Source of the DNA: Delphinus delphis
Lineage: Eukaryota; Chordata; Mammalia; Artiodactyla; Delphinidae
DNA: 64,000 nt
NCBI RefSeq assembly: GCF_949987515.2
Contig: NW_027192651.1
Location: 1,364,001-1,428,000, forward strand
Direction of reading: 5' to 3'
Shown: positions 1 to 45,794 of the stretch, in pieces
Layout: each line of letters opens with the position of its first letter
Numbering within the stretch: position 1 is the stretch's first letter
Translations under genes and position numbers: made by a program
The notes under the pieces: model-generated
Told to the model about the DNA's origin: nothing
Database searches by the model: none
What the model saw: only the letters and a program-made list of their open reading frames with translations

Positions 1-322
1 AAATTTAACTCTCATTTCCCACCAGGAAGAGGAATTAACCAAAGGCTCAGCGTGCCGTGCCGGAACCAGATTAGGGCCTGAAGCCATCCTGCGGTGTTGC
101 GGCCAGCTCAAAAGAAAGCGAGTTGAAGAAAGGAGCTCAGGGGCACTGTAATTCACAAAACTGCAGAGTTATAAATGACAGCTATCGTCCAAAAATAGAC
201 TGAAGTAAGGCTGCCAAGAGGACTTGAAAGCGGGGCAGAATTGCAGGAAACCGATTTCAGGAGGTAGACTGGAATTGCATTGAAAGCATAGGAAAAGAGG
301 CAGAACGTCCACAATGATGCAC

Positions 323-394
323 TTGGCCAAAAAGGGCGTATGCGTTTTTTCCTGAATATATTCAGGAAAAAACGCATACGCCCTTTTTGGCCAA
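323..394. repeat. 72-bp perfect palindrome, no spacer (unit 1 exemplar; present in all 41 units)
   Basis: The sequence runs TTGGCCAAAAAGGG... to ...CCCTTTTTGGCCAA and equals its own reverse complement over 72 bp, centred on GAATATATTC between 358 and 359. It stops because C lies outside both ends. It recurs at +322 to +393 of each unit. It is perfect in 29 units. One-base mismatches occur in units 2, 8, 9, 11, 17, 18, 24, 36 and 39, and two-base mismatches in units 4, 13 and 26. It could extrude as a cruciform in DNA. A transcript of either strand would fold into a hairpin of about 34 bp. A 10-bp palindrome, GCAAGCTTGC, follows at 399-408. No function is known to me. Confidence 0.97.
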
Positions 395-421
395 CCAAGC
401 AAGCTTGCAAAGGAAATCTGC

Positions 422-919
422 ACTACAATGAAGTCTCACTTCCCCCCGGTCAAAAGGGCCATCTGAAAAAAGTGTAAAATCCAGAAAGGCAGGACAGGCC
501 ATGGAGAATTGGGAGCCTTGTTATGCTGATGGGCGGGATGTAAATTGCCAACAGACACTCGGGAGAAGTGTATGGTGTTTCCTGAAACATCTAAAAAACA
601 AAGCAACAGAGCCTAGGGCACTGCCACTTATGGTCCTATAGCTTAGGGAAATTAAAATCAAAAAGACACAGCCACCCCAATGTTTGGAACGGCTCTGTTT
701 ACAAGAACTCGTTTACAGTACAAGTTCAACATCGCAGAAAGTGAAAAATGGATAAAGAAGTTGTGGTATTTACTTACAAAGCAATATCACTCAGCAATGA
801 AATCTATGTCATCAGGCCCTTAGCATCACAATGAGTGGATTCAGGTATGATGATTCTAACTGAAATAAGTCACACAGAAAAAGAAACATCATAAGATATC
901 AGTAATACACGGAATGTAA
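422..919 (+). pseudogene. Decayed LINE-1 ORF2 C-terminus inside the satellite (unit 1 exemplar)
   Basis: This part reads collinearly with the last roughly 165 codons of mammalian L1 ORF2, with frameshifts and stops. At 422-463 it reads TTMKSHFPPVKRAI, against the L1 pattern TTMRYHLTPVRMAI. At 530-547 it reads WAGCKL, against the conserved WWDCKL of the cysteine-rich region. At 749-799 it reads WIKKLWYLLTKQYHSAM, against WIKKMWYIYTMEYYSAI. At 853-882 it reads ILTEISHTEK, against IILSEVSQTQK. The TAA at 917-919 falls where the L1 stop lies. The L1 consensus was recalled from memory. The same segment is at about +421 to +918 of every unit, so it predates the amplification. It cannot code: the frame is broken, for example by a stop straight after the first motif. 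Confidence 0.88.
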
Positions 920-1150
920 ACTTGGCTACACAGGAACTGAATTACAGAACAGAACAGGGTCTCAAATTTAGAAAACCAACTTATGCTTGCTTAAGGGTAA
1001 AGGTGAGTTGGGGTGCTGCATAAAACCAGAGATTGAAATGAGCACAGATAAAGTTCCTTAAGTCAAATATGGAATAGACAAGAGCTACTCCTTGCTCAAC
1101 GAAATGGACTCAACACCGCATATTAAACGCCTAAGAATGTACCTGACTAG
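920..1150 (+). mobile_element. LINE-1 3' untranslated region remnant (unit 1 exemplar)
   Basis: Directly after the ORF2 stop, the sequence stays collinear with the L1 3' UTR I know from cetartiodactyl genomes. There is a stretch rich in ACAGAACAGAACAGG, then CTTGCTTAAGGG (L1: TTGCCAAGGGG), GAGTTGGGG, and TATGGAATAGACAAG followed by CTCCTTGCTCAACG (L1: a TCCTACTGTATAGCAC-like motif). Then CATATTAAACGCC corresponds to the L1 CAATATCCTGTGATAAACC region. Similarity becomes uncertain after about 1150, and there is no poly-A tail or target-site duplication. The element was probably cut by the event that formed the ancestral satellite unit. The same part lies at about +919 to +1149 of all units. Confidence 0.75.
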
Positions 1151-1579
1151 TAAGTATCTTAAAACCTATGGATTGCTATGTCTCCGAAAGAGAATCAAGC
1201 ATGTGTACAGGGGCATAAACGCAGCAGTGATAGGATTGGAGAGGTTCGGTGAGCAAATGAAGACCCTTTGAAGTCATATTGCATGGTACCCATTCCACGG
1301 GTTTCAACTACCCAGGTTTAAGGTATTCTTCCTTCAGCTAAAACATGCATGTGGAACCTAGAGTATGATCAACCATGTGATCGGGAGACGTGTTCAAATA
1401 TGTCTCAGTTTTCGTACCCTGGTACTCGGGTGCAACATTCCAGACGCTTTACTAACACTCTCCCCACTTGGAGAGTCAGTCCCTTTAACCTCCTGTTTGG
1501 CCCAGTTTGCAATTTCTGCCGAAGATGAACAGGAATAGCGAGAACTAATGAGAGACTAGCTGGACGTGTCTGGACGGGC
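1151..1579 (+). other. Unrecognised, relatively CpG-rich part of the monomer (unit 1 exemplar)
   Basis: I cannot relate this 3' part, or its continuation at the start of the next unit (+0 to about +300), to any gene or repeat family. It has no long open frame in most units. It carries a 10-bp palindrome, ACATGCATGT, at 1343-1352, and the near-palindrome GTACCCTGGTAC at 1414-1425 in units of the GATCGGG/TTCGTACC subtype only. From about 1290 through +150 of the next unit I count about 16 CpGs in roughly 440 bp, against about 10 in 730 bp of the L1-derived part. Small insertions and deletions here, such as AACCTAGAGTATG against AACCCAAGTATG, explain much of the 1579/1580 length difference between units. 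Confidence 0.6.
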
Positions 1580-3159
1580 AAATTTAACTCTCATTTCCCA
1601 CCAGGAAGAGGAAATAACCAAAGGCTCAGCATGCCGTGCCGGAACCAGATTAGGGCCTGAAGCCATCCTGCGGTGTTGCGGCCAGGTCACAAGAAAGCGA
1701 GTTGAAGAATGGAGCTCAGGGGCACTGTAATTCACAAACCTGCAGAGTTATAAATGACAGCTATCGTCCAAAAATAGACTGAAGTAAGGCTGCCAAGAGG
1801 ACTTGAAAGCGGGGCAGTATTGCAGGAAACCGATTTCAGGAGGTAGACTGGAATTGCATTGAAAGCATAGGAAAAGAGGCAGAACGTCCACAATGATGCA
1901 CTTGGCCAAAAAGGGCGTATGCGTTTTTTCCTGAATATATTCAGGAAAAATCGCATACGCCCTTTTTGGCCAACCAAGCAAGCTTGCAAAGGAAATCTGC
2001 ACTACAATGAAGTCTCACTTCCCCCCGGTCAAAAGGGCCATCTGAAAAAAGTGTAAAATCCAGAAAGGCAGGACAGGCCATGGAGAACTGGGAGCCTTGT
2101 TATGCTGATGGGCGGGATGTAAATTGCCAACAGACACTCGGGAGAAGTGTATGGTGTTTCCTGAAACATCTAAAAAACAAAGCAACAGAGCCTAGGGCAC
2201 TGCCACTTATGGTCCTATAGCTTAGGGAAATTAAAATCAAAAAGACACAGCCACCCCAAAGTTTGGGACGCCTCTGTTTACAAGAACCTCGTTTACAGTA
2301 CAAGTTCAACATCGCAGAAAGTGAAAAATGGATAAAGAAGTTGTGGTATTTACTTACAAAGCAATATCACTCAGCAATGAATTCTATGTCATCAGGCCCT
2401 TAGCATCACAATGAGTGGATTCAGGTATGATGATTCTAACTGAAATAAGTCACACAGAAAAAGAAACATCATAAGATATCACTAATACACGGAATGTAAA
2501 CTTGGCTACACAGGAACTGAATTACAGAACAGAACAGGGTCTCAAATTTAGAAAACCAACTTATGCTTGCTTAAGGGGAAAGGTGAGTTGGGGTGCTGCA
2601 TAAAACCAGAGATTGAAATGAGCACAGATAAAGTTCCTTAAGCCAAATATGGAATAGACAAGAGCTACTCCTTGCTCAACGAAATGGACTCAAAACCCCA
2701 TATTAAACCCCTAAGAATGTACCTGACTAGTAAGTATCTTAAAACCTATGGATTGCTATGTCTCCAAAAGAGAATCAAGCGTGTGTACAGGGGAATAAAC
2801 ACAGCAGTGATAGGATTGGAGAGGTTCGGTGAGAAAATGAAGACCCTTTGAAGTTATATTGCATGGTACCGATTACACGGGTCTCAACTCTCCAGGTTTA
2901 TGGTATTCTTCCTTCAGCTAAAACATGCATGTGGAACCCAGAGTATGATCAACCATGTGAACGGGAGACGTGTTCAAATATGTCTCAGTTTTCCTCCCCT
3001 GGTACTCGGGTGCAACATTCCAGACGCTTTACTAACACTCTCCCGACTTGGAGAGTTAGTCCCTTTAACATCCTGTTTGGCCCAGTTTGCAATTTCTGCG
3101 GAAGATGAACAGGAATAGCGAGAACTAATGAGAGGCTAGCTGGAGGTGTCTGGACGGGC
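1580..3159 (+). repeat. Satellite monomer 2 (1580 bp)
   Basis: The palindrome at 1902-1973 has one mismatch, T at 1951. It has an EcoRI-type variant AATGAATTCTATG, plus ACCCCATATTAAACCCC, GTGAGAAAATG and GGTACCGATTACAC. The tail is of the CCCAGAG/GAACGGG type with CTCCCGACTTGG. Confidence 0.95.
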
Positions 3160-4738
3160 AAATTTAACTCTCATTTCCCACCAGGAAGAGGAATTAACCA
3201 AAGGCTCAGCATGCCGTACCGGAACCAGATTAGGGCCTGAAGCCATCCAGCGGTGTTGCGGCCAGGTCACAAGAAAGCGAGTTGAAGAAAGGAGCTCAGG
3301 GGCACTGTAATTCACAAACCTGCAGAGTTATAAATGACAGCTATCGTCCAAAAATAGACTGAAGTAAGGCTGCCAAGAGGACTTGAAAGCGGGGCAGAAT
3401 TGCAGGAAACCGATTTCAGGAGGTAGACTGGAATTGCATTGAAAGCATAGGAAAAGAGGCAGAACGTCCACAATGATGCACTTGGCCAAAAAGGGCGTAT
3501 GCGTTTTTTCCTGAATATATTCAGGAAAAAACGCATACGCCCTTTTTGGCCAACCAAGCAAGCTTGCAAAGGAAATCTGCACTACAATGAAGTCTCACTT
3601 CCCCCCGGTCAAAAGGGCCATCTGAAAAAAGTGTAAAATCCAGAAGGCAGGACAGGCCATGGAGAACTGGGAGCCTTGTTATGCTGATGGGCGGGATGTA
3701 AATTGCCAACAGACACTCGGGAGAAGTGTATGGTGTTTCCTGAAACATCTAAAAAACAAAGCAACAGAGCCTAGGGCACTGCCACTTATGGTCCTATAGC
3801 TTAGGGAAATTAAAATCAAAAAGACACAGCTACCCCAAAGTTTGGGACGCCTCTGTTTACAAGAACCTCGTTTACAGTACAAGTTCAACATCGCAGAAAG
3901 TGAAAAATGGATAAAGAAGTTGTGGTATTTACTTACAAAGCAATATCACTCAGCAATGAAATCTGTGTCATCAGGCCCTTAGCAGCACAATGAGTGGATT
4001 CAGGTATGATGATTCTAACTGAAGTAAGTCACACAGAAAAAGAAACATCATAAGATATCAGTAATACACGGAATGTAAACTTGGCTACACAGGAACTGAA
4101 TTACAGAACAGAACAGGGTCTCAAATTTAGAAAACCAACTTATGCTTGCTTAAGGGTAAAGGTGAGTTGGGGTGCTGCATAAAACCAGAGATTGAAATGA
4201 GCACAGATAAAGTTCCTTAAGTCAAATATGGAATAGACAAGAGCTACTCCTTGCTCAACGAAATGGACTCAACACCGCATATTAAACGCCTAAGAATGTA
4301 CCTGACTAGTAAGTATCGTAAAACCTATGGATTGCTATGTCTCCGAAAGAGAATCAATCATGTGTACAGGGGCATAAACGCAGCAGGGATAGGACTGGAG
4401 AGGTTCGGTGAGCAAATGAAGACCCTTTGAAGTCATATTGCATGGTACCCATTCCACGGGTCTCAACTCTCAAGGTTTAAGGTATTCTTCCTTCAGCTAA
4501 AACATGCATGTGGAACCTAGAGTATGATCAACCATGTGATCGGGAGACGTGTTCAAATATGTCTCAGTTTTCCTCCCCTGGTACTCGGGTGCAACATTCC
4601 AGACGCTTTACTAACACTCTCCCCACTTGGAGAGTCAGCGCCTTTAACCTCCTGTTTGGCCCAGTTTGCAATTTCTGCGGAAGATGAACAGGAATAGCGA
4701 GAACCAATGAGAGGCTAGCTGGAGGTGTCTGGACGGGC
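3160..4738 (+). repeat. Satellite monomer 3 (1579 bp)
   Basis: The palindrome at 3482-3553 is perfect. One A is missing in CCAGAAGGCAGG near 3643, which briefly joins open frames on the minus strand. Other variants are CAGCTACCCC, TATCGTAAAACC and AGCAGGGATAGG. The tail carries TAGAG/GATCGGG but CCTCCCCTGG, so it is mixed. Confidence 0.95.
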
Positions 4739-6317
4739 AAATTTAACTCTCATTTCCCACCAGGAAGAGGAATTAACCAAAGGCTCAGCGTGCCATGCCG
4801 GAACCAGATTAGGGCCTGAAGCCATCCTGCGGTGTTGCGGCCAGCTCAAAAGAAAGCGAGTTGAAGAAAGGAGCTCAGGGGCACTGTAATTCACAAAACT
4901 GCAGAGTTATAAATGACAGCTATCGTCCAAAAATAGACTGAAGTAAGGCTGCCAAGAGGACTTGAAAGCGGGGCAGAATTGCAGGAAACCGATTTCAGGA
5001 GGTAGACTGGAATTGCATTGAAAGCATAGGAAAAGAGGCAGAACGTCCACAATGATGCACTTGGCCAAAAAGGGCATATGCGTTTTTTCCTGAATATATT
5101 CAGGAAAAAATGCATACGCCCTTTTTGGCCAACCAAGCAAGCTTGCAAAGGAAATCTGCACTACAATGAAGTCTCACTTCCCCCCGGTCAAAAGGGCCAT
5201 CTGAAAAAAGTGTAAAATCCAGAAAGGCAGGACAGGCCATGGAGAATTGGGAGCCTTGTTATGCTGATGGGCGGGATGTAAATTGCCAACAGACACTCGG
5301 GAGAAGTGTATGGTGTTTCCTGAAACATCTAAAAAACAAAGCAACAGAGCCTAGGGCACTGCCACTTATGGTCCTATAGCTTAGGGAAATTAAAATCAAA
5401 AAGACACAGCCACCCCAATGTTTGGAACGGCTCTGTTTACAAGAACCTCGTTTACAGTACAAGTTCAACATCGCAGAAAGTGAAAAATGGATAAAGAAGT
5501 TGTGGTATTTACTTACAAAGCAATATCACTCAGCAATGAAATCTATGTCATCAGGCCCTTAGCATCACAATGAGTGGATTCAGGTATGATGATTCTAACT
5601 GAAATAAGTCACACAGAAAAAGAAACATCATAAGATATCAGTAATACACGGAATGTAAACTTGGCTACACAGGAACTGAATTACAGAACAGAACAGGGTC
5701 TCAAATTTAGAAAACCAACTTATGCTTGCTTAAGGGTAAAGGTGAGTTGGGGTGCTGCATAAAACCAGAGATTGAAATGAGCACAGATAAAGTTCCTTAA
5801 GCCAAATATGGAATAGACAAGAGCTACTCCTTGCTCAACGAAATGGACTCAACACCCATATTAAACGCCTAAGAATGTTCCTGACTAGTAAGTATCTTAA
5901 AACCTATGGATTGCTAAGTCTCCAAAAGAGAATCAAGCATGTGTACAGGGGCATAAACGCAGCAGTGATAGGATTGGAGAGGTTCGGTGAGCAAATGAAG
6001 ACCCTTTGAAGTCATATTGCATGGTACCCATTCCATGGGTTTCAACTACCCAGGTTTAAGGTATTCTTCCTTCAGCTAAAACATGCATGTGGAACCTGGA
6101 GTATGATCAACCATGTGATCGGGAGACGTGTTCAAATATGTCTCAGTTTTCGTACCCTGGTACTTGGGTGCAACATTCCAGACGCTTTACTAACACTCTC
6201 CCAACTTGGAGAGTCAGTCCCTTTAACCTCCTGTTTGGCCCAGTTTGCAATTTCTGCGGAAGATGAACAGGAATAGCGAGAACCAATGAGAGGCTAGCTG
6301 GAGGTGTCTGGACGGGC
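4739..6317 (+). repeat. Satellite monomer 4 (1579 bp)
   Basis: The palindrome at 5061-5132 has two unpaired changes, A at 5076 (left arm) and T at 5111 (right arm). CAACACCCATATT lacks one G. Other variants are AATGTTCCTG, ACCTGGAGTATG and GGTACTTGGG. It opens like unit 1 (GGAATTAACC, CAGCTCAAAAG). Confidence 0.95.
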
Positions 6318-7896
6318 AAATTTAACTCTCATTTCCCACCAGGAAGAGGAATTAACCAAAGGCTCAGCGTGCCGTGCCGGAACCAGATTAGGTCCTGAAG
6401 CCATCCTGCGGTGTTGCGGCCAGGTCACAAGAAAGCGAGTTGAAGAAAGGAGCTCAGGGGCACTGTAATTCACAAACCTGCAGAGTTATAAATGACAGCT
6501 ATCGTCCAAAAATAGACTGAAGTAAGGCTGCCAAGAGGACTTGAAAGCGGGGCAGAATTGCAGGAAACCGATTTCAGGAGGTAGACTGGAATTGCATTGA
6601 AAGCATAGGAAAAGAGGCAGAACGTCCACAATGATGCACTTGGCCAAAAAGGGCGTATGCGTTTTTTCCTGAATATATTCAGGAAAAAACGCATACGCCC
6701 TTTTTGGCCAACCAAGCAAGCTTGCAAAGGAAATCTGCACTACAATGAAGTCTCACTTCCCCCCGGTCAAAAGGGCCATCTGAAAAAAGTGTAAAATCCA
6801 GAAAGGCAGGACAGGCCATGGAGAACTGGGAGCCTTGTTATGCTGATGGGCGGGATGTAAATTGCCAACAACCACTCGGGAGAAGTGTATGGTGTTTCCT
6901 GAAACATGTAAACAACAAAGCAACAGAGCCTAGGGCACTTCCACTTATGGTCCTATAGCTTAGGGAAATTAAAATCAAAAAGACACAGCCACCCCAAAGT
7001 TTGGAACGGCTCTGTTTACAAGAAGCTCGTTTACAGTACAAGTTCAACATCGCAGAAAGTGAAAAATGGATAAAGAACTTGTGGTATTTACTTACAAAGC
7101 AATATCACTCAGCAATGAAATCTGTGTCATCAGGCCCTTAGCAGCACAATGAGTGGATTCAGGTATGATGATTCTAACTGAAGTAAGTCACACAGAAAAA
7201 GAAACATCATAAGATATCAGTAATACACGGAATGTAAACTTGGCTACACAGGAACTGAATTACAGAACAGAACAGGGTCTCAAATTTAGAAAACCAACTT
7301 ATGCTTGCTTAAGGGGAAAGGTGAGTTGGGGTGCTGCATAAAACCAGAGATTGAAATGAGCACAGATAAAGTTCCTTAAGTCAAATATGGAATAGACAAG
7401 AGCTACTCCTTGCTCAATGAAATGGACTCAACACCGCATATTAAACGCCTAAGAATGTACCTGACTAGTAAGTATCTTAAAACCTATGGATTGCTATGTC
7501 TCCGAAAGAGAATCAAGCATGTGTACAGGGGCATAAACGCAGCAGTGATAGGATTGGAGAGGTTCGGTGAGCAAATGAAGACCCTTTGAAGTCATATTGC
7601 ATGGTACCCATTACACGGGTCTTAACTCTCCAGGTTTAAGGTATTCTTCCTTCAGCTAAAACATGCATGTGGAACCCAAGTATGATCAACCATGTGAACG
7701 GGAGACGTGTTCAAATATGTCTCAGTTTTCCTCCCCTGGTACTCGGGTGCAACATTCCAGACGCTTTACTAACACTCTCCCCACTTGGAGAGTCAGCGCC
7801 TTTAACCTCCTGTTTGGCACAGTTTGCAATTTCTGCGGAAGATGAACAGGAATAGCGAGAACCAATGAGAGACTAGCTGGAGGTGTCTGGACGGGC
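6318..7896 (+). repeat. Satellite monomer 5 (1579 bp)
   Basis: The palindrome at 6640-6711 is perfect. Variants are TTAGGTCCTGAAG, CAACAACCACTCGG, ACATGTAAACAAC and GAAGCTCG. The tail is of the CCCAAG/GAACGGG type with TTTGGCACAG. Confidence 0.95.
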
Positions 7897-9475
7897 AAAT
7901 TTAACTCTCATTTCCCACCAGGAAGAGGAAATAACCAAAGGCTCAGCGTGCCGTGCCGGAACCAGATTAGGGCCTGAAGCCATCCTGCAGTGTTGCGGCC
8001 AGGTCACAAGAAAGCAAGTTGAAGAAAGGAGCTCAGGGCCACTGTAATTCACAAACCTGCAGAGTTATAAATGACAGCTATCGTCCAAAAATAGACTGAA
8101 GTAAGGCTGCCAAGAGGACTTGAAAGCGGGGCAGAATTGCAGGAAACCGATTTCAGGAGGTAGACTGGAATTGCATTGAAAGCATAGGAAAAGAGGCAGA
8201 ACGTCCACAATGATGCACTTGGCCAAAAAGGGCGTATGCGTTTTTTCCTGAATATATTCAGGAAAAAACGCATACGCCCTTTTTGGCCAACCAAGCAAGC
8301 TTGCAAAGGAAATCTGCACTACAATGAAGTCTCACTTCCCCCCGGGCAAAAGGGCCATCTGAAAAAAGTGTAAAATCCAGAAAGGCAGGACAGGCCATGG
8401 AGAACTGGGAGCCTTGTTATGCTGATGGGCGGGATGTAAATTGCCAACAACCACTCGGGAGAAGTGTATGGTGTTTCCTGAAACATCTAAAAAACAAAGC
8501 AACAGAGCCTAGGGCACTTCTACTTATGGTCCTATAGCTTAGGGAAATTAAAATCAAAAAGACACAGCCACCCCAAAGTTTGGGACGCCTCCGTTTATAA
8601 GAACCTCGTTTACCATACAAGTTCAATATCACAGAAAGTGAAAAATGGATAAAGAACTTGTGGTACTTACGTACAAAGCAATATCACTCAGCAATGAAAT
8701 CTATGTCATCAGGCCCGTAGCAGCATAATGACTGGATTCAGGTACGATGATTCTAACTGAAACAAGTCACACAGAAAAAGAAACATCATAAGATATCACT
8801 AATACACGGAATGTAAACTTGGCTACACAGGAACTGCATTCCAAAACAGAACAGGGTCTCAAATTTAGAAAACCAACTTATGCTTGCTTAAGGGGAAAGG
8901 TGAGTTGGGGTGCTGCATAAAACCAGAGATTGAAACGAGCACAGATAAAGTTCCTTAAGCCAAATATGGAATAGACAAGAGCTACTCCTTGCTCAATGAA
9001 ATGGCCTCAACACCGCATATTAAACGCCTAAGAATGTACCTGACTAGTAAGTATCTTAAAACCTATGGATTGCTATGTCTCCAAAAGAGAATCAAGCGTG
9101 TGTACAGGGGCATAAACGCAGCAGTGATAGGATTGGAGAGGTTCGGTGAGCAAATGAAGACCCTTTGAAGTCATATTGCATGGTACCCATTCCACGGGTC
9201 TCAACTCTCCAGGTTTAAGGTATTCTTCCTTCAGCTAAAACATGCATGTGGAACCCAAGTATGATCAACCATGTGAACGGGAGACGTGTTCAAATATGTC
9301 TCAGTTTTCCTCGCCTGGTACTCGGGTGCAACATTCCAGACGCTTTACTAACACTCTCCCCACTTGGAGAGTCAGCGCCTTTAACCTCCTGTTTGGCACA
9401 GTTTGCAATTTCTGCGGAAGATGAACAGGAATAGCGAGAACCAATGAGAGACTAGCTGGAGGTGTCTGGACGGGC
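7897..9475 (+). repeat. Satellite monomer 6 (1579 bp), divergent L1-derived half
   Basis: The palindrome at 8219-8290 is perfect. The L1-derived half is unusually different: CGTTTATAAGAACC, TTTACCATACAAG, GGTACTTACGTAC, GCCCGTAGCAGCATAATG, GGTACGATG, AACTGCATTCC and ATGGCCTCAAC. Several of these recur only in units 32, 37 and 40, far away in the array. Confidence 0.95.
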
Positions 9476-11054
9476 AAATTTAACTCTCATTTCCCACCAG
9501 GAAGAGGAAATAACCAAAGGCTCAGCATGCCGTGGCGGAACCAGATTAGGGCCTGAAGCCATCCTGCGGTGTTGCGGCCAGGTCACAAGAAAGCAAGTTG
9601 AAGAAAGGAGCTCAGGGGCACTGTAATGCACAAACCTGCAGAGTTATAAATGACAGCTATCGTCCAAAAATAGACTGAAGTAAGGCTGCCAAGAGGACTT
9701 GAAAGCGGGGCAGAATTGCAGGAAACCGATTTCAGGAGGTAGACTGGAATTGCATTGATAGCATAGGAAAAGAGGCAGAACGTCCACAATGATGCACTTG
9801 GCCAAAAAGGGCGTATGCGTTTTTTCCTGAATATATTCAGGAAAAAACGCATACGCCCTTTTTGGCCAACCAAGCAAGCTTGCAAAGGAAATCTGCACTA
9901 CAATGAAGTCTCACTTCCCCCCGGTCAAAAGGGCCATCTGAAAAAAGTGTAAAATCCAGAAAGGCAGGACAGGCCATGGAGAATTGGGAGCCTTGTTATG
10001 CTGATGGGCGGGATGTAAATTGCCAACAACCACTCGGGAGAAGTGTATGGTGTTTCCTGAAACATCTAAAAAACACAGCAACAGAGCCTAGGGCACTGCC
10101 ACTTATGGTCCTATAGCTTAGGGAAATTAAAATCAAAAAGACACAGCCACCCCAAAGTTTGGAACGGCTCTGTTTACAAGAACCTCGTTTACAGTACAAG
10201 TTCAACATCACAGAAAGTGAAAAATGGATAAAGAAGTTGTGGTATTTACTTACAAAGCAATATCACTCAGCAATGAAATCTGTGTCATCAGGCCCTTAGC
10301 AGCACAATGAGTGGATTCAGGTATGATGATTCTAACTGAAGTAAGTCACACAGAAAAAGAAACATCATAAGATATCAGTAATACACGGAATGTAAACTTG
10401 GCTACACAGGAACTGAATTACAGAACAGAACAGGGTCTCAAATTTAGAAAACCAACTTATGTTTGCTTAAGGGTAAAGGTGAGTTGTGGTGCTGCATAAA
10501 ACCAGAGATTGAAATGAGCACAGATAAAGTTCCTTAAGTCAAATATGGAATAGACAAGAGCTACTCCTTGCTCAACGAAATGGACTCAACACCGCATATT
10601 AAACGCCTAAGAATGTACCTGACTAGTAAGTATGTTAAAACCTATGGATTGCTATGTCTCTGAAAGAATATCAAGCATGTGTACAGGGGCATAAACGCAG
10701 CAGTGATAGGATTGGAGAGGTTCGGTGAGCAAATGAAGACCCTTTGAAGTCATATTGCATGGTACCCATTACACGGGTCTTAACTCTCCAGGTTTAAGGT
10801 ATTCTTCCTTCAGCTAAAACATGCATGTGGAACCCAAGTATGATCAACCATGTGAACGGGAGACGTGTTCAAATATGTCTCAGTTTTCCTCCCCTGGTAC
10901 TCGGGTGCAACATTCCAGACGCTTTACTAACACTCTCCCCACTTGGAGAGTCAGCGCCTTTAACCTCCTGTTTGGCCCAGTTTGCAATTTCTGCGGAAGA
11001 TGAACAGGAATAGCGAGAACCAATGAGAGACTAGCTGGAGGTGTCTGGACGGGC
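9476..11054 (+). repeat. Satellite monomer 7 (1579 bp)
   Basis: The palindrome at 9798-9869 is perfect. TGTAATGCAC replaces TGTAATTCAC, which removes a stop on the minus strand and lengthens a spurious frame. Other variants are CATTGATAGC, AAACACAGC, TATGTTTGC, GAGTTGTGGTG and CTCTGAAAGAATATC. Confidence 0.95.
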
Positions 11055-12633
11055 AAATTTAACTCTCATTTCCCACCAGGAAGAGGAAATAACCAAAGGC
11101 TCAGCGTGCCGTGCCGGAACCAGATTAGGGCCTGAAGCCATCCTGCGGTGTTGCGGCCAGGTCACAAGAAAGCAAGTTGAAGAAAGGAGCTCAGGGGCAC
11201 TGTAATTCACAAACCTGCAGAGTTATAAATGACAGCTATCGTCCAAAAATAGACTGAAGTAAGGCTGCCAAGAGGACTTGAAAGCGGGGCAGAATTGCAG
11301 GAAACCGATTTCAGGAGGTAGACTGGAATTGCATTGAAAGCATAGGAAAAGAGGCAGAACGTCCACAATGATGCACTTGGCCAAAAAGGGCGTATGCGTT
11401 TTTTCCTGAATATATTCAGGAGAAAACGCATACGCCCTTTTTGGCCAACCAAGCAAGCTTGCAAAGGAAATCTGCACTACAATGAAGTCTCACTTCCCCC
11501 CGGTCAAAAGGGCCATCTGAAAAAAGTGTAAAATCCAGAAAGGCAGGACAGGCCATGGAGAACTGGGAGCCTTGTTATGCTGATGGGCGGGATGTAAATT
11601 GCCAACAACCACTCGGGAGAAGTGTATGGTGTTTCCTGAAACATCTAAAAAACAAAGCAACAGAACCTAGGGCACTTCCACTTATGGTCCTATAGCTTAG
11701 GGAAATTAAAATCAAAAAGACACAGCCACCCCAAAGTTTGGAACGGCTCCGTTTACAAGAACCTCGTTTACAGTACAAGTTCAACATCGCAGAAAGTGAA
11801 AAATGGATAAAGAAGTTGTGGTATTTACTTACAAAGCAATATCACTCAGCAATGAAATCTGTGTCATCAGGCCCTTAGCAGCACAATGAGTGGATTCAGG
11901 TATGATGATTCTAACTGAAGTAAGTCACACAGAAAAAGAAACATCATAAGATATCAGTAATACATGGAATGTAAACTTGGCTACACAGGAACTGAATTAC
12001 AGAACAGAACAGGGACTCAAATTTAGAAAACCAACTTATGCTTGCTTAAGGGTAAAGGTGAGTTGGGGTGCTGCATAAAACCAGAGATTGAAATGAGCAC
12101 AGATAAAGTTCCTTAAGTCAAATATGGAATAGACAAGAGCTACTCCTTGCTCAACGAAATGGACTCAACACCGCATATTAAACACCTAAGAATGTACCTG
12201 ACTAGTAAGTATCTTAAAACCTATGGATTGCTATGTCTCCGAAAGAGAATCAAGCATGTGTACAGGGGCATTAATGCAGCAGTGATAGGATTGGAGAGGT
12301 TCGGTGAGCAAATGAAGACCCTTTGAAGTCATATTGCATGGTACCCATTACACGGGTCTTAACTCTCCAGGTTTAAGGTATTCTTCCTTCAGCTAAAACA
12401 TGCATGTGGAACCCAAGTATGATCAACCATGTGAACGGGAGACGTGTTCAAATATGTCTCAGTTTTCCTCCCCTGGTACTCGGGTGCAACATTCCAGACG
12501 CTTTACTAACACTCTCCCCACTTGGAGAGTCAGCGCCTTTAACCTCCTGTTTGGCCCAGTTTGCAATTTCTGTGGAAGATGAACAGGAATAGCGAGAACC
12601 AATGAGAGACTAGCTGGAGGTGTCTGGACGGGC
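11055..12633 (+). repeat. Satellite monomer 8 (1579 bp)
   Basis: The palindrome at 11377-11448 has one mismatch, G at 11422. Variants are GGCTCCGTTTAC, TACATGGAATG, CAGGGACTC and AACACCTAAG. From 12185 on it joins the dimer repeat, with GGCATTAATGC and TTCTGTGGAAG, also seen in unit 10. Confidence 0.95.
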
Positions 12634-14213
12634 AAATTTAACTCTCATTTCCCACCAGGAAGAGGAAATAACCAAAGGCTCAGCGTGCCGTGCCGGAACC
12701 AGATTAGGGCCTGAAGCCATCCTGCGGTGTTGCGGCCAGGTCACAAGAAAGCAAGTTGAAGAAAGGAGCTCAGGGGCACTGTAATTCACAAACCTGCAGA
12801 GTTATAAATGACAGCTATCGTCCAAAAATAGACTGAAGTAAGGCTGCCAAGAGGACTTGAAAGCGGGGCAGAATTGCAGGAAACCGATTTCAGGAGGTAG
12901 ACTGGAATTGCTTTGAAAGCATAGGAAAAGAGGCAGAACGTCCACAATGATGCACTTGGCCAAAAAGGGCGTATGCGTTTTTTCCTGAATATATTCAAGA
13001 AAAAACGCATACGCCCTTTTTGGCCAACCAAGCAAGCTTGCAAAGGAAATCTGCACTACAATGAAGTCTCACTTCCCCCCGGTCAAAAGGGCCATCTGAA
13101 AAAAGTGTAAAATCCAGAATGGCAGGACAGGCCATGGAGAACTGGGAGCCTTGTTATTCTGATGGGCGGGATGTAAATTGCCAACAACCACTCGGGAGAA
13201 GTATATGGTGTTTCCTGAAACATCTAAAAAACAAAGCAACAGAACCTAGGGCACTTCCACTTATGGTCCTATAGCTTAGGGAAATTAAAATCAAAAAGAC
13301 ACAGCCACCCCAAAGTTTGGAATGGCTCTGTTTACAAGAACCTCGTTTACAGTACAAGTTCAACATCGCAGAAAGTGAAAAATGGATAAAGAAGTTGTGG
13401 TATTTACTTACAAAGCAATATCACTCAGCAATGAAATCTATGTCATCAGGCCCTTAGCAGCACAATGAGTGGATTCAGGTATGATGATTCTAACTGAAAT
13501 AAGTCACACAGAAAAAGAAACATCATAAGATATCACTAATACACGGAATGTAATCTTGGCTACACAGGAACTGAATTCCAAAACAGAACAGGGTCTCAAA
13601 TTTAGAAAACCAACTTATGCTTGCTTAAGTGTAAAGGTGAGTTGGGGTGCTGCATAAAACCAGAGATTGAAATGAGCACAGATAAAGTTCCTTAAGTCAA
13701 ATATGGAATAGACAAGAGCTACTCCTTGCTCAACGAAATGGACTCAACACCGCATATTAAACGCCTAAGAATGTACCTGACTAGTAAGTATCTTAAAACC
13801 TATGGATTGCTATGTCTCCGAAAGAGAATCAAGCATGTGTACAGGGGCATAAACGCAGCAGTGATAGGATTGGAGAGGTTCGGTGAGCAAATGAAGACCC
13901 TTTGAAGTCATATTGCATGGTACCCATTCCACGGGTTTCAACTACCCAGGTTTAAGGTATTCTTCCTTCAGCTAAAACATGCATGTGGAACCTAGAGTAT
14001 GATCAACCATGTGATCGGGAGACGTGTTCAAATATGTCTCAGTTTTCGTACCCTGGTACTCGGGTGCAACATTCCAGACGCTTTACTAACACTCTCCCCA
14101 CTTGGACAGTCAGTCCCTTTAACCTCCTGTTTGGCCCAGTTTGCAATTTCTGCGGAAGATGAACAGGAATAGCGAGAACCAATGAGAGGCTAGCTGGAGG
14201 TGTCTGGACGGGC
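12634..14213 (+). repeat. Satellite monomer 9 (1580 bp), dimer type A
   Basis: The palindrome at 12956-13027 has one mismatch, A at 12998 (TTCAAG). Variants are TTGCTTTGAAAG, CAGAATGGCAGG, TTGTTATTCTG, AGTATATGG and AATGTAATCTTGG. The tail is GATCGGG/TTCGTACC with CTTGGACAGTC. Confidence 0.95.
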
Positions 14214-15792
14214 AAATTTAACTCTCATTTCCCACGAGGAAGAGGAATTAACCAAAGGCTCAGCGTGCCATGCCGGAACCAGATTAGGGCCTGAAGCCAT
14301 CCTGCGGTGTTGCGGCCAGGTCACAAGAAAGCGAGTTGAAGAAAGGAGCTCAGGGGCACTGTAATTCACAAACCTGCAGAGTTATAAATGACAGCTATCG
14401 TCCAAAAATAGACTGAAGTAAGGCTGCCAAGAGGACTTGAAAGCGGGGCAGAATTGCAGGAAACCGATTTCAGGAGGTAGACTGGAATTGCATTGAAAGC
14501 ATAGGAAAAGAGGCAGAACGTCCACAATGATGCACTTGGCCAAAAAGGGCGTATGCGTTTTTTCCTGAATATATTCAGGAAAAAACGCATACGCCCTTTT
14601 TGGCCAACCAAGCAAAGTTGCAAAGGAAATGTGCACTACAATGAAGTCTCACTTCCCCCCAGTCAAAAGGGCCATCTGAAAAAAGTGTAAAATCCAGAAA
14701 GGCAGGACAGGCCATGGAGAACTGGGAGCCTTGTTATGCTGATGGGCGGGATGTAAATTGCCAACAACCACTCGGGAGAAGTGTATGGTGTTTCCTGAAA
14801 CATCTAAAAAACACAGCAACAGAGCCTAGGGCACTGCCACTTATGGTCCTATAGCTTAGGGAAATTAAAATCAAAACGACACAGCCACCCCAAAGTTTGG
14901 GACGGCTCTGTTTACAAGAACCTCGTTTACAGTACAAGTTCAACATCGCAGAAAGTGAAAAATGGATAAAGAAGTTGTGGTATTTACTTACAAAGCAATA
15001 TCACTCAGCAATGAAATCTGTGTCATCAGGCCCTTAGCAGCACAATGAGTGGATTCAGGTATGATGATTCTAACTGAAGTAAGTCACACAGAAAAAGAAA
15101 CATCATAAGATATCAGTAATACATGGAATGTAAACTTGGCTACACAGGAACTGAATTACAGAACAGAACAGGGTCTCAAATTTAGAAAACCAACTTATGC
15201 TTGCTTAAGGGGAAAGGTGAGTTGGGGTGCTGCATAAAACCAGAGATTGAAATGAGCACAGATAAAGTTCCTTAAGTCAAATATGGAATAGACAAGAGCT
15301 ACTCCTTGCTCAACGAAATGGACTCAACACCGCATATTAAACGCCTAAGAATGTACCTGACTAGTAAGTATCTTAAAACCTATGGATTGCTATGTCTCCG
15401 AAAGAGAATCAAGCATGTGTACAGGGGCATTAATGCAGCAGTGATAGGATTGGAGAGGTTCGGTGAGCAAATGAAGACCCTTTGAAGTCATATTGCATGG
15501 TACCCATTACACGGGTCTTAACTCTCCAGGTTTAAGGTATTCTTCCTTCAGCTAAAACATGCATGTGGAACCCAAGTATGATCAACCATGTGAACGGGAG
15601 ACGTGTTCAAATATGTCTCAGTTTTCCTCCCCTGGTACTCGGGTGCAACATTCCAGACGCTTTACTAACACTCTCCCCACTTGGAGAGTCAGCGCCTTTA
15701 ACCTCCTGTTTGGCCCAGTTTGCAATTTCTGTGGAAGATGAACAGGAATAGCGAGAACCAATGAGAGACTAGCTGGAGGTGTCTGGACGGGC
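14214..15792 (+). repeat. Satellite monomer 10 (1579 bp), dimer type B
   Basis: The palindrome at 14536-14607 is perfect, but the adjacent HindIII palindrome is lost (CAAAGTTGC). Variants are CCCACGAGGAAG, GTGCCATGCC, CCCCCCAGTC, AAACACAGC and CAAAACGAC. The tail is CCCAAG/GAACGGG with TTCTGTGGAAG. Confidence 0.95.
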
Positions 15793-17372
15793 AAATTTAA
15801 CTCTCATTTCCCACCAGGAAGAGGAAATAACCAAAGGCTCAGCGTGCCGTGCCGGAACCAGATTAGGGCCTGAAGCCATCCTGCGGTGTTGCGGCCAGGT
15901 CACAAGAAAGCAAGTTGAAGAAAGGAGCTCAGGGGCACTGTAATTCACAAACCTGCAGAGTTATAAATGACAGCTATCGTCCAAAAATAGACTGAAGTAA
16001 GGCTGCCAAGAGGACTTGAAAGCGGGGCAGAATTGCAGGAAACCGATTTCAGGAGGTAGACTGGAATTGCTTTGAAAGCATAGGAAAAGAGGCAGAACGT
16101 CCACAATGATGCACTTGGCCAAAAAGGGCGTATGCGTTTTTTCCTGAATATATTCAAGAAAAAACGCATACGCCCTTTTTGGCCAACCAAGCAAGCTTGC
16201 AAAGGAAATCTGCACTACAATGAAGTCTCACTTCCCCCCGGTCAAAAGGGCCATCTGAAAAAAGTGTAAAATCCAGAATGGCAGGACAGGCCATGGAGAA
16301 CTGGGAGCCTTGTTATTCTGATGGGCGGGATGTAAATTGCCAACAACCACTCGGGAGAAGTATATGGTGTTTCCTGAAACATCTAAAAAACAAAGCAACA
16401 GAACCTAGGGCACTTCCACTTATGGTCCTATAGCTTAGGGAAATTAAAATCAAAAAGACACAGCCACCCCAAAGTTTGGAATGGCTCTGTTTACAAGAAC
16501 CTCGTTTACAGTACAAGTTCAACATCGCAGAAAGTGAAAAATGGATAAAGAAGTTGTGGTATTTACTTACAAAGCAATATCACTCAGCAATGAAATCTAT
16601 GTCATCAGGCCCTTAGCAGCACAATGAGTGGATTCAGGTATGATGATTCTAACTGAAATAAGTCACACAGAAAAAGAAACATCATAAGATATCACTAATA
16701 CACGGAATGTAATCTTGGCTACACAGGAACTGAATTCCAAAACAGAACAGGGTCTCAAATTTAGAAAACCAACTTATGCTTGCTTAAGTGTAAAGGTGAG
16801 TTGGGGTGCTGCATAAAACCAGAGATTGAAATGAGCACAGATAAAGTTCCTTAAGTCAAATATGGAATAGACAAGAGCTACTCCTTGCTCAACGAAATGG
16901 ACTCAACACCGCATATTAAACGCCTAAGAATGTACCTGACTAGTAAGTATCTTAAAACCTATGGATTGCTATGTCTCCGAAAGAGAATCAAGCATGTGTA
17001 CAGGGGCATAAACGCAGCAGTGATAGGATTGGAGAGGTTCGGTGAGCAAATGAAGACCCTTTGAAGTCATATTGCATGGTACCCATTCCACGGGTTTCAA
17101 CTACCCAGGTTTAAGGTATTCTTCCTTCAGCTAAAACATGCATGTGGAACCTAGAGTATGATCAACCATGTGATCGGGAGACGTGTTCAAATATGTCTCA
17201 GTTTTCGTACCCTGGTACTCGGGTGCAACATTCCAGACGCTTTACTAACACTCTCCCCACTTGGACAGTCAGTCCCTTTAACCTCCTGTTTGGCCCAGTT
17301 TGCAATTTCTGCGGAAGATGAACAGGAATAGCGAGAACCAATGAGAGGCTAGCTGGAGGTGTCTGGACGGGC
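15793..17372 (+). repeat. Satellite monomer 11 (1580 bp), dimer type A
   Basis: I found no base that differs from unit 9. The palindrome is at 16115-16186, with the same single arm mutation, so that mutation was copied with the unit. Confidence 0.95.
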
Positions 17373-18951
17373 AAATTTAACTCTCATTTCCCACGAGGAA
17401 GAGGAATTAACCAAAGGCTCAGCGTGCCATGCCGGAACCAGATTAGGGCCTGAAGCCATCCTGCGGTGTTGCGGCCAGGTCACAAGAAAGCGAGTTGAAG
17501 AAAGGAGCTCAGGGGCACTGTAATTCACAAACCTGCAGAGTTATAAATGACAGCTATCGTCCAAAAATAGACTGAAGTAAGGCTGCCAAGAGGACTTGAA
17601 AGCGGGGCAGAATTGCAGGAAACCGATTTCAGGAGGTAGACTGGAATTGCATTGAAAGCATAGGAAAAGAGGCAGAACGTCCACAATGATGCACTTGGCC
17701 AAAAAGGGCGTATGCGTTTTTTCCTGAATATATTCAGGAAAAAACGCATACGCCCTTTTTGGCCAACCAAGCAAAGTTGCAAAGGAAATGTGCACTACAA
17801 TGAAGTCTCACTTCCCCCCAGTCAAAAGGGCCATCTGAAAAAAGTGTAAAATCCAGAAAGGCAGGACAGGCCATGGAGAACTGGGAGCCTTGTTATGCTG
17901 ATGGGCGGGATGTAAATTGCCAACAACCACTCGGGAGAAGTGTATGGTGTTTCCTGAAACATCTAAAAAACACAGCAACAGAGCCTAGGGCACTGCCACT
18001 TATGGTCCTATAGCTTAGGGAAATTAAAATCAAAACGACACAGCCACCCCAAAGTTTGGGACGGCTCTGTTTACAAGAACCTCGTTTACAGTACAAGTTC
18101 AACATCGCAGAAAGTGAAAAATGGATAAAGAAGTTGTGGTATTTACTTACAAAGCAATATCACTCAGCAATGAAATCTGTGTCATCAGGCCCTTAGCAGC
18201 ACAATGAGTGGATTCAGGTATGATGATTCTAACTGAAGTAAGTCACACAGAAAAAGAAACATCATAAGATATCAGTAATACATGGAATGTAAACTTGGCT
18301 ACACAGGAACTGAATTACAGAACAGAACAGGGTCTCAAATTTAGAAAACCAACTTATGCTTGCTTAAGGGGAAAGGTGAGTTGGGGTGCTGCATAAAACC
18401 AGAGATTGAAATGAGCACAGATAAAGTTCCTTAAGCCAAATATGGAATAGACAAGAGCTACTCCTTGCTCAACGAAATGGACTCAACACCGCATATTAAA
18501 CGCCTAAGAATGTACCTGACTAGTAAGTATCTTAAAACCTATGGATTGCTATGTCTCCGAAAGAGAATCAAGCATGTGTACAGGGGCATTAATGCAGCAG
18601 TGATAGGATTGGAGAGGTTCGGTGAGCAAATGAAGACCCTTTGAAGTCATATTGCATGGTACCCATTACACGGGTCTTAACTCTCCAGGTTTAAGGTATT
18701 CTTCCTTCAGCTAAAACATGCATGTGGAACCCAAGTATGATCAACCATGTGAACGGGAGACGTGTTCAAATATGTCTCAGTTTTCCTCCCCTGGTACTCG
18801 GGTGCAACATTCCAGACGCTTTACTAACACTCTCCCCACTTGGAGAGTCAGCGCCTTTAACCTCCTGTTTGGCCCAGTTTGCAATTTCTGCGGAAGATGA
18901 ACAGGAATAGCGAGAACCAATGAGAGACTAGCTGGAGGTGTCTGGACGGGC
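17373..18951 (+). repeat. Satellite monomer 12 (1579 bp), dimer type B
   Basis: It matches unit 10 up to 18435, then differs at 18436 (TTAAGCCAAA) and by TTCTGCGGAAG. The palindrome at 17695-17766 is perfect and the neighbouring HindIII site is lost. Confidence 0.95.
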
Positions 18952-20531
18952 AAATTTAACTCTCATTTCCCACCTGGAAGAGGAAATAACCAAAGGCTCA
19001 GCGTGCCGTGCCGGAACCAGATTAGGGCCTGAAGCCATCCTGCGGTGTTGCGGCCAGCTCAAAAGAAAGCAAGTTGAAGAAAGGAGCTCAGGGGCACTGT
19101 AATTCACAAACCTGCAGAGTTATAAATGACAGCTATCGTCCAAAAATAGACTGAAGTAAGGCTGCCAAGAGGACTTGAAAGCGGGGCAGAATTGCAGGAA
19201 ACCGATTTCAGGAGGTAGACTGGAATTGCATTGAAAGCATAGGAAAAGAGGCAGAACGTCCACAATGATGCACTTGGCCAAAAAGGGCGTATGCGTTTTT
19301 TCCTGAATATACTCAAGAAAAAACGCATACGCCCTTTTTGGCCAACCAAGCAAGCTTGCAAAGGAAATCTGCACTACAATGAAGTCTCACTTCCCCCCGG
19401 TCAAAAGGGCCATCTGAAAAAAGTGTAAAATCCAGAATGGCAGGACAGGCCATGGAGAACTGGGAGCCTTGTTATTCTGATGGGCGGGATGTAAATTGCC
19501 AACAACCACTCGGGAGAAGTATATGGTGTTTCCTGATACATCTAAAAAACAAAGCAACAGAACCTAGGGCACTTCCACTTATGGTCCTATAGCTTAGGGA
19601 AATTAAAATCAAAAAGACACAGCCACCCCAAAGTTTGGAATGGCTCTGTTTACAAGAACCTCGTTTACAGTACAAGTTCAACATCGCAGAAAGTGAAAAA
19701 TGGATAAAGAAGTTGTGGTATTTACTTACAAAGCAATATCACTCAGCAATGAAATCTATGTCATCAGGCCCTTAGCAGCACAATGAGTGGATTCAGGTAT
19801 GATGATTCTAACTGAAATAAGTCACACAGAAAAAGAAACATCATAAGATATCACTAATACACGGAATGTAATCTTGGCTACACAGGAACTGAATTCCAAA
19901 ACAGAACAGGGTCTCAAATTTAGAAAACCAACTTATGCTTGCTTAAGTGTAAAGGTGAGTTGGGGTGCTGCATAAAACCAGAGATTGAAATGAGCACAGA
20001 TAAAGTTCCTTAAGTCAAATATGGAATAGACAAGAGCTACTCCTTGCTCAACGAAATGGACTCAACACCGCATATTAAACGCCTAAGAATGTACCTGACT
20101 AGTAAGTATCTTAAAACCTATGGATTGCTATGTCTCCGAAAGAGAATCAAGCATGTGTACAGGGGCATAAACGCAGCAGTGATAGGATTGGAGAGGTTCG
20201 GTGAGCAAATGAAGACCCTTTGAAGTCATATTGCATGGTACCCATTCCACGGGTTTCAACTCTCCAGGTTTAAGGTATTCTTCCTTCAGCTAAAACATGC
20301 ATGTGGAACCTAGAGTATGATCAACCATGTGATCGGGAGACGTGTTCAAATATGTCTCAGTTTTCGTACCCTGGTACTCGGGTGCAACATTCCAGACGCT
20401 TTACTAACACTCTCCCCACTTGGACAGTCAGTCCCTTTAACCTCCTGTTTGGCCCAGTTTGCAATTTCTGCGGAAGATGAACAGGAATAGCGAGAACCAA
20501 TGAGAGGCTAGCTGGAGGTGTCTGGACGGGC
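18952..20531 (+). repeat. Satellite monomer 13 (1580 bp), dimer type A variant
   Basis: The palindrome at 19274-19345 has two changes: C at 19312 (private) and A at 19316 (shared with units 9 and 11). Other variants are CCCACCTGGAAG, CAGCTCAAAAG and CCTGATACATC. Confidence 0.95.
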
Positions 20532-22110
20532 AAATTTAACTCTCATTTCCCACGAGGAAGAGGAATTAACCAAAGGCTCAGCGTGCCATGCCGGAACCAG
20601 ATTAGGGCCTGAAGCCATCCTGCGGTGTTGCGGCCAGGTCACAAGAAAGCGAGTTGAAGAAAGGAGCTCAGGGGCACTGTAATTCACAAACCTGCAGAGT
20701 TATAAATGACAGCTATCGTCCAAAAATAGACTGAAGTAAGGCTGCCAAGAGGACTTGAAAGCGGGGCAGAATTGCAGGAAACCGATTTCAGGAGGTAGAC
20801 TGGAATTGCATTGAAAGCATAGGAAAAGAGGCAGAACGTCCACAATGATGCACTTGGCCAAAAAGGGCGTATGCGTTTTTTCCTGAATATATTCAGGAAA
20901 AAACGCATACGCCCTTTTTGGCCAACCAAGCAAAGTTGCAAAGGAAATGTGCACTACAATGAAGTCTCACTTCCCCCCAGTCAAAAGGGCCATCTGAAAA
21001 AAGTGTAAAATCCAGAAAGGCAGGACAGGCCATGGAGAACTGGGAGCCTTGTTATGCTGATGGGCGGGATGTAAATTGCCAACAACCACTCGGGAGAAGT
21101 GTATGGTGTTTCCTGAAACATCTAAAAAACAAAGCAACAGAGCCTAGGGCACTGCCACTTATGGTCCTATAGCTTAGGGAAATTAAAATCAAAAAGACAC
21201 AGCCACCCCAAAGTTTGGAACGGCTCTGTTTACAAGAACCTCGTTTACAGTACAAGTTCAACATCGCAGAAAGTGAAAAAGGGATAAAGAAGATGTGGTA
21301 TTTACTTACTAAGCAATATCACTCAGCAATGAAATCTATGTCATCAGGCCCTTAGCATCACAATGAGTGGATTCAGGTATGATGATTCTAACTGAAATAA
21401 GTCACACAGAAAAAGAAACATCATAAGATATCAGTAATACACGGAATGTAAACTTGGCTACACAGGAACTGAATTACAGAACAGAACAGGGTCTCAAATT
21501 TAGAAAACCAACTTATGCTTGCTTAAGTGTAAAGGTGAGTTGGGTTGCTGCATAAAACCAGAGATTGAAATGAGCACAGATAAAGTTCCTTAAGTCAAAT
21601 ATGGAATAGACAAGAGCTACTCCTTGCTCAACGAAATGGACTCAACACCGCATATTAAACGCCTAAGAATGTACCTGACTAGTAAGTATCTTAAAACCTA
21701 TGGATTGCTATGTCTCCGAAAGAGAATCAAGCATGTGTACAGGGGCATTAATGTAGCAGTGATAGGATTGGAGAGGTTCGGTGAGCAAATGAAGACCCTT
21801 TGAAGTCATCTTGCATGGTACCCATTACACGGGTCTCAACTCTCCAGGTTTAAGGTATTCTTCCTTCAGCTAAAACATGCATGTGGAACCCAAGTATGAT
21901 CAACCATGTGAACGGGAGACGTGTTCAAATATGTCTCAGTTTTCCTCCCCTGGTACTCGGGTGCAACATTCCAGATGCTTTACTAACACTCTCCCCACTT
22001 GGAGAGTCAGCGCCTTTAACCTCCTGTTTGGCCCAGTTTGCAATTTCTGCGGAAGATGAACAGGAATAGCGAGAACCAATGAGAGACTAGCTGGAGGTGT
22101 CTGGACGGGC
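20532..22110 (+). repeat. Satellite monomer 14 (1579 bp), dimer type B then mosaic
   Basis: The palindrome at 20854-20925 is perfect and the HindIII site is lost, as in units 10 and 12. The L1-derived half switches subtype after about 21120. Private variants are GAAAAAGGGATAAAG, TTACTTACTAAGC, GGCATTAATGTAGC and CAGATGCTTT. Confidence 0.95.
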
Positions 22111-44830: not shown

Positions 44831-45794
44831 GGCACTTCCACTTATGGTCCTATAGCTTAGGGAAATTAAAATCAAAAAGACACAGCCACCCCAAAGTTTG
44901 GAACGGCTCTGTTTACAAGAAGCTCGTTTACAGTACAAGTTCAACATCGCAGAAAGTGAAAAATGGATAAAGAATTTGTGGTATTTACTTACAAAGCAAT
45001 ATCACTCAGCAATGAAATCTGTGTCATCAGGCCCTTAGCAGCAGAATGAGTGGATTCAGGTATGATGATTCTAACTGAAGTAAGTCACACAGAAAAAGAA
45101 ACATCATAAGATATCAGTAATACACGGAATGTAAACTTGGCTACACAGGAACTGAATTACAGAACAGAACATGGTCTCAAATTTAGAAAACCAACTTATG
45201 CTTGCTTAAGGGTAAAGGTGAGTTCGGGTGCTGCATAAAACCAGAGATTGAAATGAGCACAGATAAAGTTCCTTAAGTCAAATATGGAATAGACAAGAGC
45301 TACTCCTTGCTCAATGAAATGGACTCAACACCGCATATTAAATGCCTAAGAATGTACCTGACTAGTAAGTATCTTAAAAACCTATGGATTGCTATGTCTC
45401 CGAAAGAGAATCAAGCATGTGTACAGGGGCATAAACGCAGCAGTGATAGGATTGGAGAGGTTCGGTGAGCAAATGAAGACACTTTGAAGTCATCTTGCAT
45501 GGTACCCATTACACGGGTCTTAACTCTCCAGGTTTAAGGTATTCTTCCTTCAGCTAAAACATGCATGTGGAACCCAAGTATGATCAACCATGTGAACGGG
45601 AGACGTGTTCAAATATGTCTCAGTTTTCCTCCCCTGGTACTCGGGTGCAACATTCCAGACGCTTTACTAACACTCTCCCCACTTGGAGAGTCAGCGCCTT
45701 TAACCTCCTGTTTGGCCCAGTTTGCAATTTCTGCGGAAGATGAACAGGAATAGCGAGAACCAATGAGAGACTAGCTGGAGGTGTCAGGACGGGC
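44215..45794 (+). repeat. Satellite monomer 29 (1580 bp)
   Basis: The palindrome at 44537-44608 is perfect. It begins like unit 28 (CGTCGAAAAATAG), then continues as a type shared only with unit 31: GAAGCTCG, AGAATTTGTGG, CAGCAGAATGAG, AACATGGTCTC and GTTCGGGTG. Private variants are AAACCAATTT and AAGACACTTTG. Confidence 0.95.

Follow-up and report, generated by a model that had tools for sequence, protein, structure and literature searches.

A truncated L1 3′ end and a palindrome related to mariner-type MITEs in the monomer of an abundant Delphinus delphis satellite

The 1,579-bp satellite monomer that fills a 64,000-bp stretch of the Delphinus delphis genome (the window) is very probably a composite, in which a truncated L1 of an older type and a mariner-type MITE are carried as passengers in the satellite unit, whichever order of events brought them there. 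The L1 part, at about 409–1230 of the first monomer, accounts for 822 of the 1,579 bp (52%), and the MITE-related part is a palindrome that ends 14 bp before the L1 begins (Table 1). The L1 origin of the satellite, which had also been proposed in an initial annotation made from this DNA alone, is already published: according to papers that cite it, it has been in print since 1998 (Kapitonov, Holmquist & Jurka). Beyond that published statement, and without claim of novelty, the present study describes the older L1 subfamily type, the mariner-MITE palindrome, the copy number of the satellite, and the excess divergence of its L1 part. The results bear out, now with an assembled cetacean genome, the 1998 claim of a LINE-1 origin for a major whale satellite. 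By fixing the extent and subfamily type of the L1 and adding a second element, they also make the monomer a case of dispersed repeats becoming tandem heterochromatin.

The window consists of 40.5 tandem units of about 1,579 bp. With monomer 1 as the blastn query, 41 plus-strand places were found, including monomer 1 itself, arranged head to tail. Identity to monomer 1 is 96.3–98.9% for the other 39 full monomers and 98.0% for the partial one, and the mean pairwise difference among the 40 full monomers is 2.56%. Consensus work used these 40, with the partial 41st excluded, and 1,301 of the 1,579 columns of the resulting consensus are invariant. Monomers 9 and 11 are identical, as are 36 and 39. 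Together with 37/40 and 10/12, these pairs are identical or nearly so at a distance of two or three units, as expected of local duplication, and a general higher-order period is absent. Tandem Repeats Finder, which covers periods up to 500 only, reported nothing in the window. The segment at 201–322, to the left of the palindrome and with equivalents in every monomer, shows low variability among the 40 monomers. Where 10.8 shared variable sites and 12.1 singletons would be expected, there are 2 (p 0.002, without correction and for a region picked after looking) and 6 (p 0.07), respectively. For about 43% of the monomer no source was found when a 657-bp non-L1 profile was compared with a 200-kb random sample of the genome and with 18 L1 loci.

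Table 1. Features of the satellite array and of its first monomer, in window coordinates
Feature	Position	Strand	Remarks
Satellite array, 1,579-bp monomer	1..64000	+	40 full copies and one partial (63170-64000); blastn of monomer 1
Monomer 1, part without detected relative	1..321	+	Single match (E 3.2) to 200 kb sampled at random from the genome; nothing from L1 at E ≤ 10
Monomer 1, palindrome with TTGGCCAAAAAG ends of a mariner-type MITE	322..399 (palindrome 323-394)		72 bp, perfect; two 36-nt arms, no spacer
Monomer 1, L1 ORF2 C-terminal segment	409..920	+	5′-truncated at about 409; frame broken; ORF2 stop TAA at 917-919
Monomer 1, L1 3′ UTR, older L1 subfamily	921..1230	+	Final L1 part and poly-A unrecognisable
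Monomer 1, part without detected relative	1231..1579	+	Tested from about 1246; L1 tail remnants possible in 1231-1245

The L1 identity of the ORF2 part is supported at both the nucleotide and the protein level. Each of the 18 L1 loci fetched from the Delphinus delphis assembly via reverse-transcriptase matches gives an alignment with the consensus of the 40 monomers that starts at position 414, with E values between 9e-22 and 4e-14. A profile of their 3′ ends matches the consensus at 409–1051 with 158.7 bits (E 1.7e-50; nhmmer at maximum sensitivity), whereas the best score among 1,000 dinucleotide shuffles is 5.4 bits. An ORF2 protein of the same genome matches frame 3 (486–803, E 7e-12) and frame 2 (413–703, E 2e-7), and the reading frame is therefore broken. 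When a frame-3 piece was compared with 177,635 distinct PDB sequences, all four sequences matched at E ≤ 1 were L1 ORF2p chains (best E 0.0018; residues 1146–1236 of 1275). The ORF2 stop lies one base later in the consensus than in monomer 1. Identity between L1 and the monomer is low, at about 65–66%, and the sequence is A-rich. Variable sites among the 40 monomers fall in 409–1243 in proportion to its length, with 82 of the 140 shared sites (74 expected) and 85 of the 156 singletons (82.5 expected). With its frame broken and its variability like that of the rest of the monomer, the L1 segment looks like a passenger, without sign of function.

These results bear out most of what the initial annotation had read from the letters. 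It had described about 730 of the 1,579 bp as collinear with the C-terminal codons of ORF2, the stop, and the 3′ UTR, and this collinearity, on the plus strand, is significant against profiles of the genome's own L1s. The blocks that it singled out (422–463, 530–547, 749–799, and 853–882, with the stop at 917–919) all lie within one collinear plus-strand L1 alignment, and the broken frame and low identity agree with the decayed state that it assigned to the element. The profile search and the protein-level ORF2 comparison that it had proposed both gave a significant collinear plus-strand match. Its interval of 422–1150 holds as L1 homology but not in its boundaries, as homology can be detected between about 409 and about 1230.

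Beyond the stop, the 3′ UTR profile of the young L1s of the genome gives no positive score. Young-type L1 3′ ends were rejected as the source of the 3′ UTR, because single-copy alignments to 900–1579 plus 1–300 were no better than shuffles, of which 163 of 200 reached the score for L031, 89 of 200 that for L011, and 109 of 200 that for the intermediate L026. Older L1 copies were therefore sought. Two were obtained from 20 random 10-kb stretches (200 kb), a third candidate, L026, being excluded as young-type, and a 3′-UTR-only profile built from these two scores 35.9 bits, whereas shuffles reach no more than 4.4. With an older copy as the query, the genome gave 7,218 first-look candidates, the best 40 of which were scored. 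A first profile of mid-age L1s still included flanking sequence from outside L1 where copies were truncated, and it gave way to a version restricted to the 3′ part that the copies share. The 13-copy older-type profile, which comprises the older copy and twelve picked from the 40 scored (the best 11 after the self-match of L021, plus rank 16 after it) and is biased to low divergence, reaches 78.1 bits, compared with a maximum of 5.4 in 1,000 shuffles. Consensus positions 844–1230 align to positions 3–384 of the 434-nt consensus of these 13 copies with 245 identities, 127 mismatches, and 25 gaps, leaving about 50 nt at the end of the L1 subfamily consensus unaligned. No poly-A tail is recognisable where the homology ends, at 1230 (position 384 of 434), and for this reason the segment is termed L1-derived rather than an intact L1 insertion. 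The 3′ UTR belongs, by sequence similarity, to an older L1 subfamily of the Delphinus delphis genome and not to its young L1s. The earlier assignment of this part to an L1 3′ UTR is thus upheld, with significance against the older L1 type, but does not extend to the young L1s of this genome. The accompanying argument, that the age of the L1 lineage dates the birth of the satellite, provides a lower bound on when the L1 segment arose but no birth date for the array.

The second element is the palindrome, which is present at all 41 monomer places in the window. Its arms pair perfectly in 28 of the 40 full monomers, with one mismatch in 9 and two in 3. The arm begins with TTGGCCAAAAAG, a sequence of cetartiodactyl mariner elements. 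A 27-nt pattern representing the family form has 576 matches in the genome, compared with 0 for the reversed control. Twelve MITE copies were fetched, a non-random set in that some were chosen for paired arms or a variant arm, and both TTGGCCAAAAAG ends are exact in five of them, which measure 67–70 bp end to end. A profile of 11 of the 12 (L047, in which the second arm is missing, was excluded) matches 322–399 at 39.5 bits, while 5,000 null palindromes made from shuffled arms reach at most 21.7. A mariner with Transposase_1 and HTH_48 domains (L033) has similar ends. As a single copy this is weak evidence: among 20,000 shuffles of the arm, 40 and 172 reached the respective scores of its two ends, and a higher score (31 vs 30) came from an unrelated site in the 200-kb sample. 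The relation was settled by the genome-wide family. Two further palindromic matches, L034:2731 and L014:4613, were first taken for MITEs and were rejected on inspection.

Comparison with this family indicates that the palindrome is related to, and appears to derive from, a dispersed mariner-type MITE. Like the mariner-type MITEs of the genome, it has terminal TTGGCCAAAAAG and the CGT and GTTTTT motifs in both arms, and its length is similar (72 bp vs 67–70 bp between TTGGCC ends). Unlike them, it is perfect and spacer-free and has five departures shared by the two arms. By eye, no TA target-site duplication is visible in the alignments, the flanks being ATGCAC before TTGGCC and CCAAGC after GGCCAA, and the palindrome is thus described as derived from a MITE and is not itself termed one. 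Within the first 22 positions, the two satellite arms share five departures from the family consensus, and arm-to-arm mismatches, counted without gaps, occur in 10 of the 11 fetched MITEs with two readable arms. The simplest reading would be that one arm was at some time copied onto the other, by template switching or conversion. Counting against such copying, three of the five departures also occur as family variants (in 5, 8, and 1 of 23 family arms), and some may therefore be inherited. None of the perfectly paired monomers differs from the consensus within the palindrome, so that ongoing conversion is not supported. Among the 40 monomers, constraint on the palindrome was not detected (5 singletons vs 7.1 expected; 3 shared sites vs 6.4 expected), and an Rfam scan returned only sub-threshold microRNA-precursor matches to it, far below gathering scores, as any long hairpin may give.

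The L1 part of the satellite stands out by its divergence. A tree of the 3′ part groups the young L1 copies with 100% support and places the satellite outside that group, with the older copies; its exact position there has support of 40% or less. Its terminal branch is 0.66, compared with 0.034–0.14 for 18 dispersed copies, a contrast enlarged by the choice of 13 copies as best matches, which shortened their branches. Two older copies from outside that selection, L034 and L021b, have branches of 0.14 and 0.13, with a shared internal branch of 0.06. In the tree of the ORF2 part, the satellite branch is 0.46, compared with 0.014–0.13 for five young and mid-age copies, and alignment error at 55–66% identity inflates branch lengths. 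Two further comparisons weaken the excess. The young L1 group sits on a branch of 0.41 in the 3′-part tree, which indicates that L1 3′ UTRs can change fast, and, in the ORF2 tree, the terminal (0.18–0.34) and internal (0.10–0.15) branches of three ancient L1 pieces add up to a distance from the common node similar to that of the satellite. The L1 part nonetheless appears to be several times more diverged than the sampled dispersed L1s of matching type, to a degree that simple neutral decay of one such insertion would not explain. Either change has been faster in satellite DNA, or the source was an earlier, unsampled offshoot of the same L1 lineage. Whether satellite DNA changes faster than its source elements is thus posed as a testable question.

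In the model that we propose, a 5′-truncated L1 of an older subfamily adjoining a mariner-type MITE would, within about 1.6 kb that includes other DNA, have become the unit, and tandem amplification and homogenisation would have multiplied this unit to about 148,000 copies, with the amplification probably proceeding by unequal exchange or a rolling-circle route. We prefer the view that the L1 and the MITE were present before the first amplification rather than entering an existing unit. Counting against this model are the missing L1 poly-A, which does not favour a clean insertion event, the terminal branch of 0.66, and the roughly 43% of the monomer for which no source was found. The converse order of events, in which the L1 (and the MITE) entered one monomer of an existing satellite and the variant then replaced the others by homogenisation, is possible, if the less probable course. 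L1s do insert into arrays, since young-type L1s are directly joined to satellite at two loci (L009 and L018), and the identical monomers 9/11 and 36/39 indicate that homogenisation is active. The whole-length alignment of all 40 full monomers and the palindrome at all 41 places, both within the window, speak against this order without being decisive. Accordingly, the initial annotation's proposal that the satellite was seeded from, or formed across, an L1 insertion stands as regards derivation from L1, while seeding is not separable here from an L1 landing in an existing unit followed by homogenisation.

An extended form of the composite, which we regard as rather doubtful, would give its two elements an active history. 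The joined L1 3′ end and mariner MITE would since birth have been changing several times faster than dispersed L1s of the same type, the MITE would have been remade into a spacer-free perfect hairpin with its arms kept identical by arm-to-arm copying, and the hairpin would have helped to drive amplification to about 9% of the genome. It is very improbable that the whole monomer is L1, with a remainder too diverged to be recognised. The title of the 1998 paper by Kapitonov et al. reportedly calls L1 "a basic unit" of these satellites, and that wording, which is the title's only, would suit an all-L1 monomer. However, an L1 profile reaching 889 positions upstream of the match (nhmmer; the profile stops short of the L1 5′ half) finds nothing outside 409–1051 at E ≤ 10, and the 657-bp non-L1 profile, compared with the 18 L1 loci, matches only the satellite stretches of L009 and L018. 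Finally, chance or shared A-richness, for which the low identity, the A-rich sequence, and the failure of one-copy young-type 3′ UTR alignments to beat shuffles might speak, has a negligible likelihood and is refuted by the scores of the three profiles against their shuffle maxima, by collinearity over about 820 bp, and by the independent PDB protein match to ORF2p.

The satellite in the window is most likely the 1,579-bp common cetacean satellite, with which it shares a tandem monomer of that length, a cetacean host, high copy number, and similarity to the L1 3′ end, a likeness in length and description. The cetacean host is borne out by a myoglobin exon of the assembly, for which the closest of 177,635 PDB sequences are ancestral whale myoglobins obtained by reconstruction (3 differences in 75 residues for the best), whereas a second globin exon proved to be cytoglobin and was uninformative. 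The older L1 subfamily, the extent of 409–1230, and the mariner-like palindrome are measured here. In its citing passage, PMC9659126 describes the common cetacean satellite monomer as resembling the 3′-terminal part of L1, with reference to Kapitonov, Holmquist & Jurka 1998, a paper also cited in passages of PMC8909793, PMC6947457, PMC6471113, and PMC4079207. A passage in PMC7763226 likewise mentions similarity of the satellite to the 3′ part of L1. The 1,579-bp component of the killer whale is, by its title, the subject of Widegren et al. 1985, as given in passages of the citing papers PMC9659126, PMC8909793, PMC6947457, and PMC7763226 (cited for Widegren 1985 and Kapitonov 1998 together). 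Among the papers listed for the cetacean satellite, titles and abstract beginnings do not mention the palindrome. Compared with the L1s of the Delphinus delphis genome, the satellite segment has the ORF2 C-terminus, the stop, and the 3′ UTR in the same order, but it is 5′-truncated, broken in frame, left with no poly-A, about 34% different, and tandem rather than dispersed. The HinfI/CR1 (chicken), PisTR-A/Ogre (pea), and SGM (Drosophila guanche) satellites are likewise TE pieces turned into tandem units, by the account in a passage of PMC9659126, whereas the present monomer combines two unrelated element types, one next to the other.

Across the whole assembly, the palindrome arm occurs, with at most two mismatches, 148,405 times in forward and 148,174 times in reverse orientation, compared with 0 for the control. 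Assuming one arm of each orientation per monomer and faithful assembly of the arrays, this corresponds to about 148,000 monomers and about 234 Mb, which is about 8.8% of the 2,663-Mb assembly. Among the matches listed (the best 40 of 3,573 candidates were scored), whole-monomer matches lie on at least 22 contigs. The arm matches listed include arrays on C1 at 120.4–120.9 Mb and, near the contig end, at 184.1–184.2 Mb. Monomer 1 of the window has a nearly identical counterpart (2844 of 2848 bits) at G000:C27:2574719-2576297, on the contig of the window and 1.2 Mb from it. This match is far closer than that to the adjacent monomer (97.3%) and hints at long-range duplication or an assembly effect. 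At L009:145-4402 (G000 C205), a young-type L1 with a 1,273-codon ORF2 and an A-run is followed at once by satellite position 755, and at L018 (G000 C29) satellite sequence from position 654 follows a young-type L1 whose ORF2 is broken. Elsewhere in the genome, four L1 reverse-transcriptase matches about 8.6 kb apart (G000:C4:46713150-46739714) suggest a tandem duplication carrying L1, and three identical MITE arms at 14.93-kb spacing (G000:C1:148999800-149029679) suggest a tandem segmental duplication.
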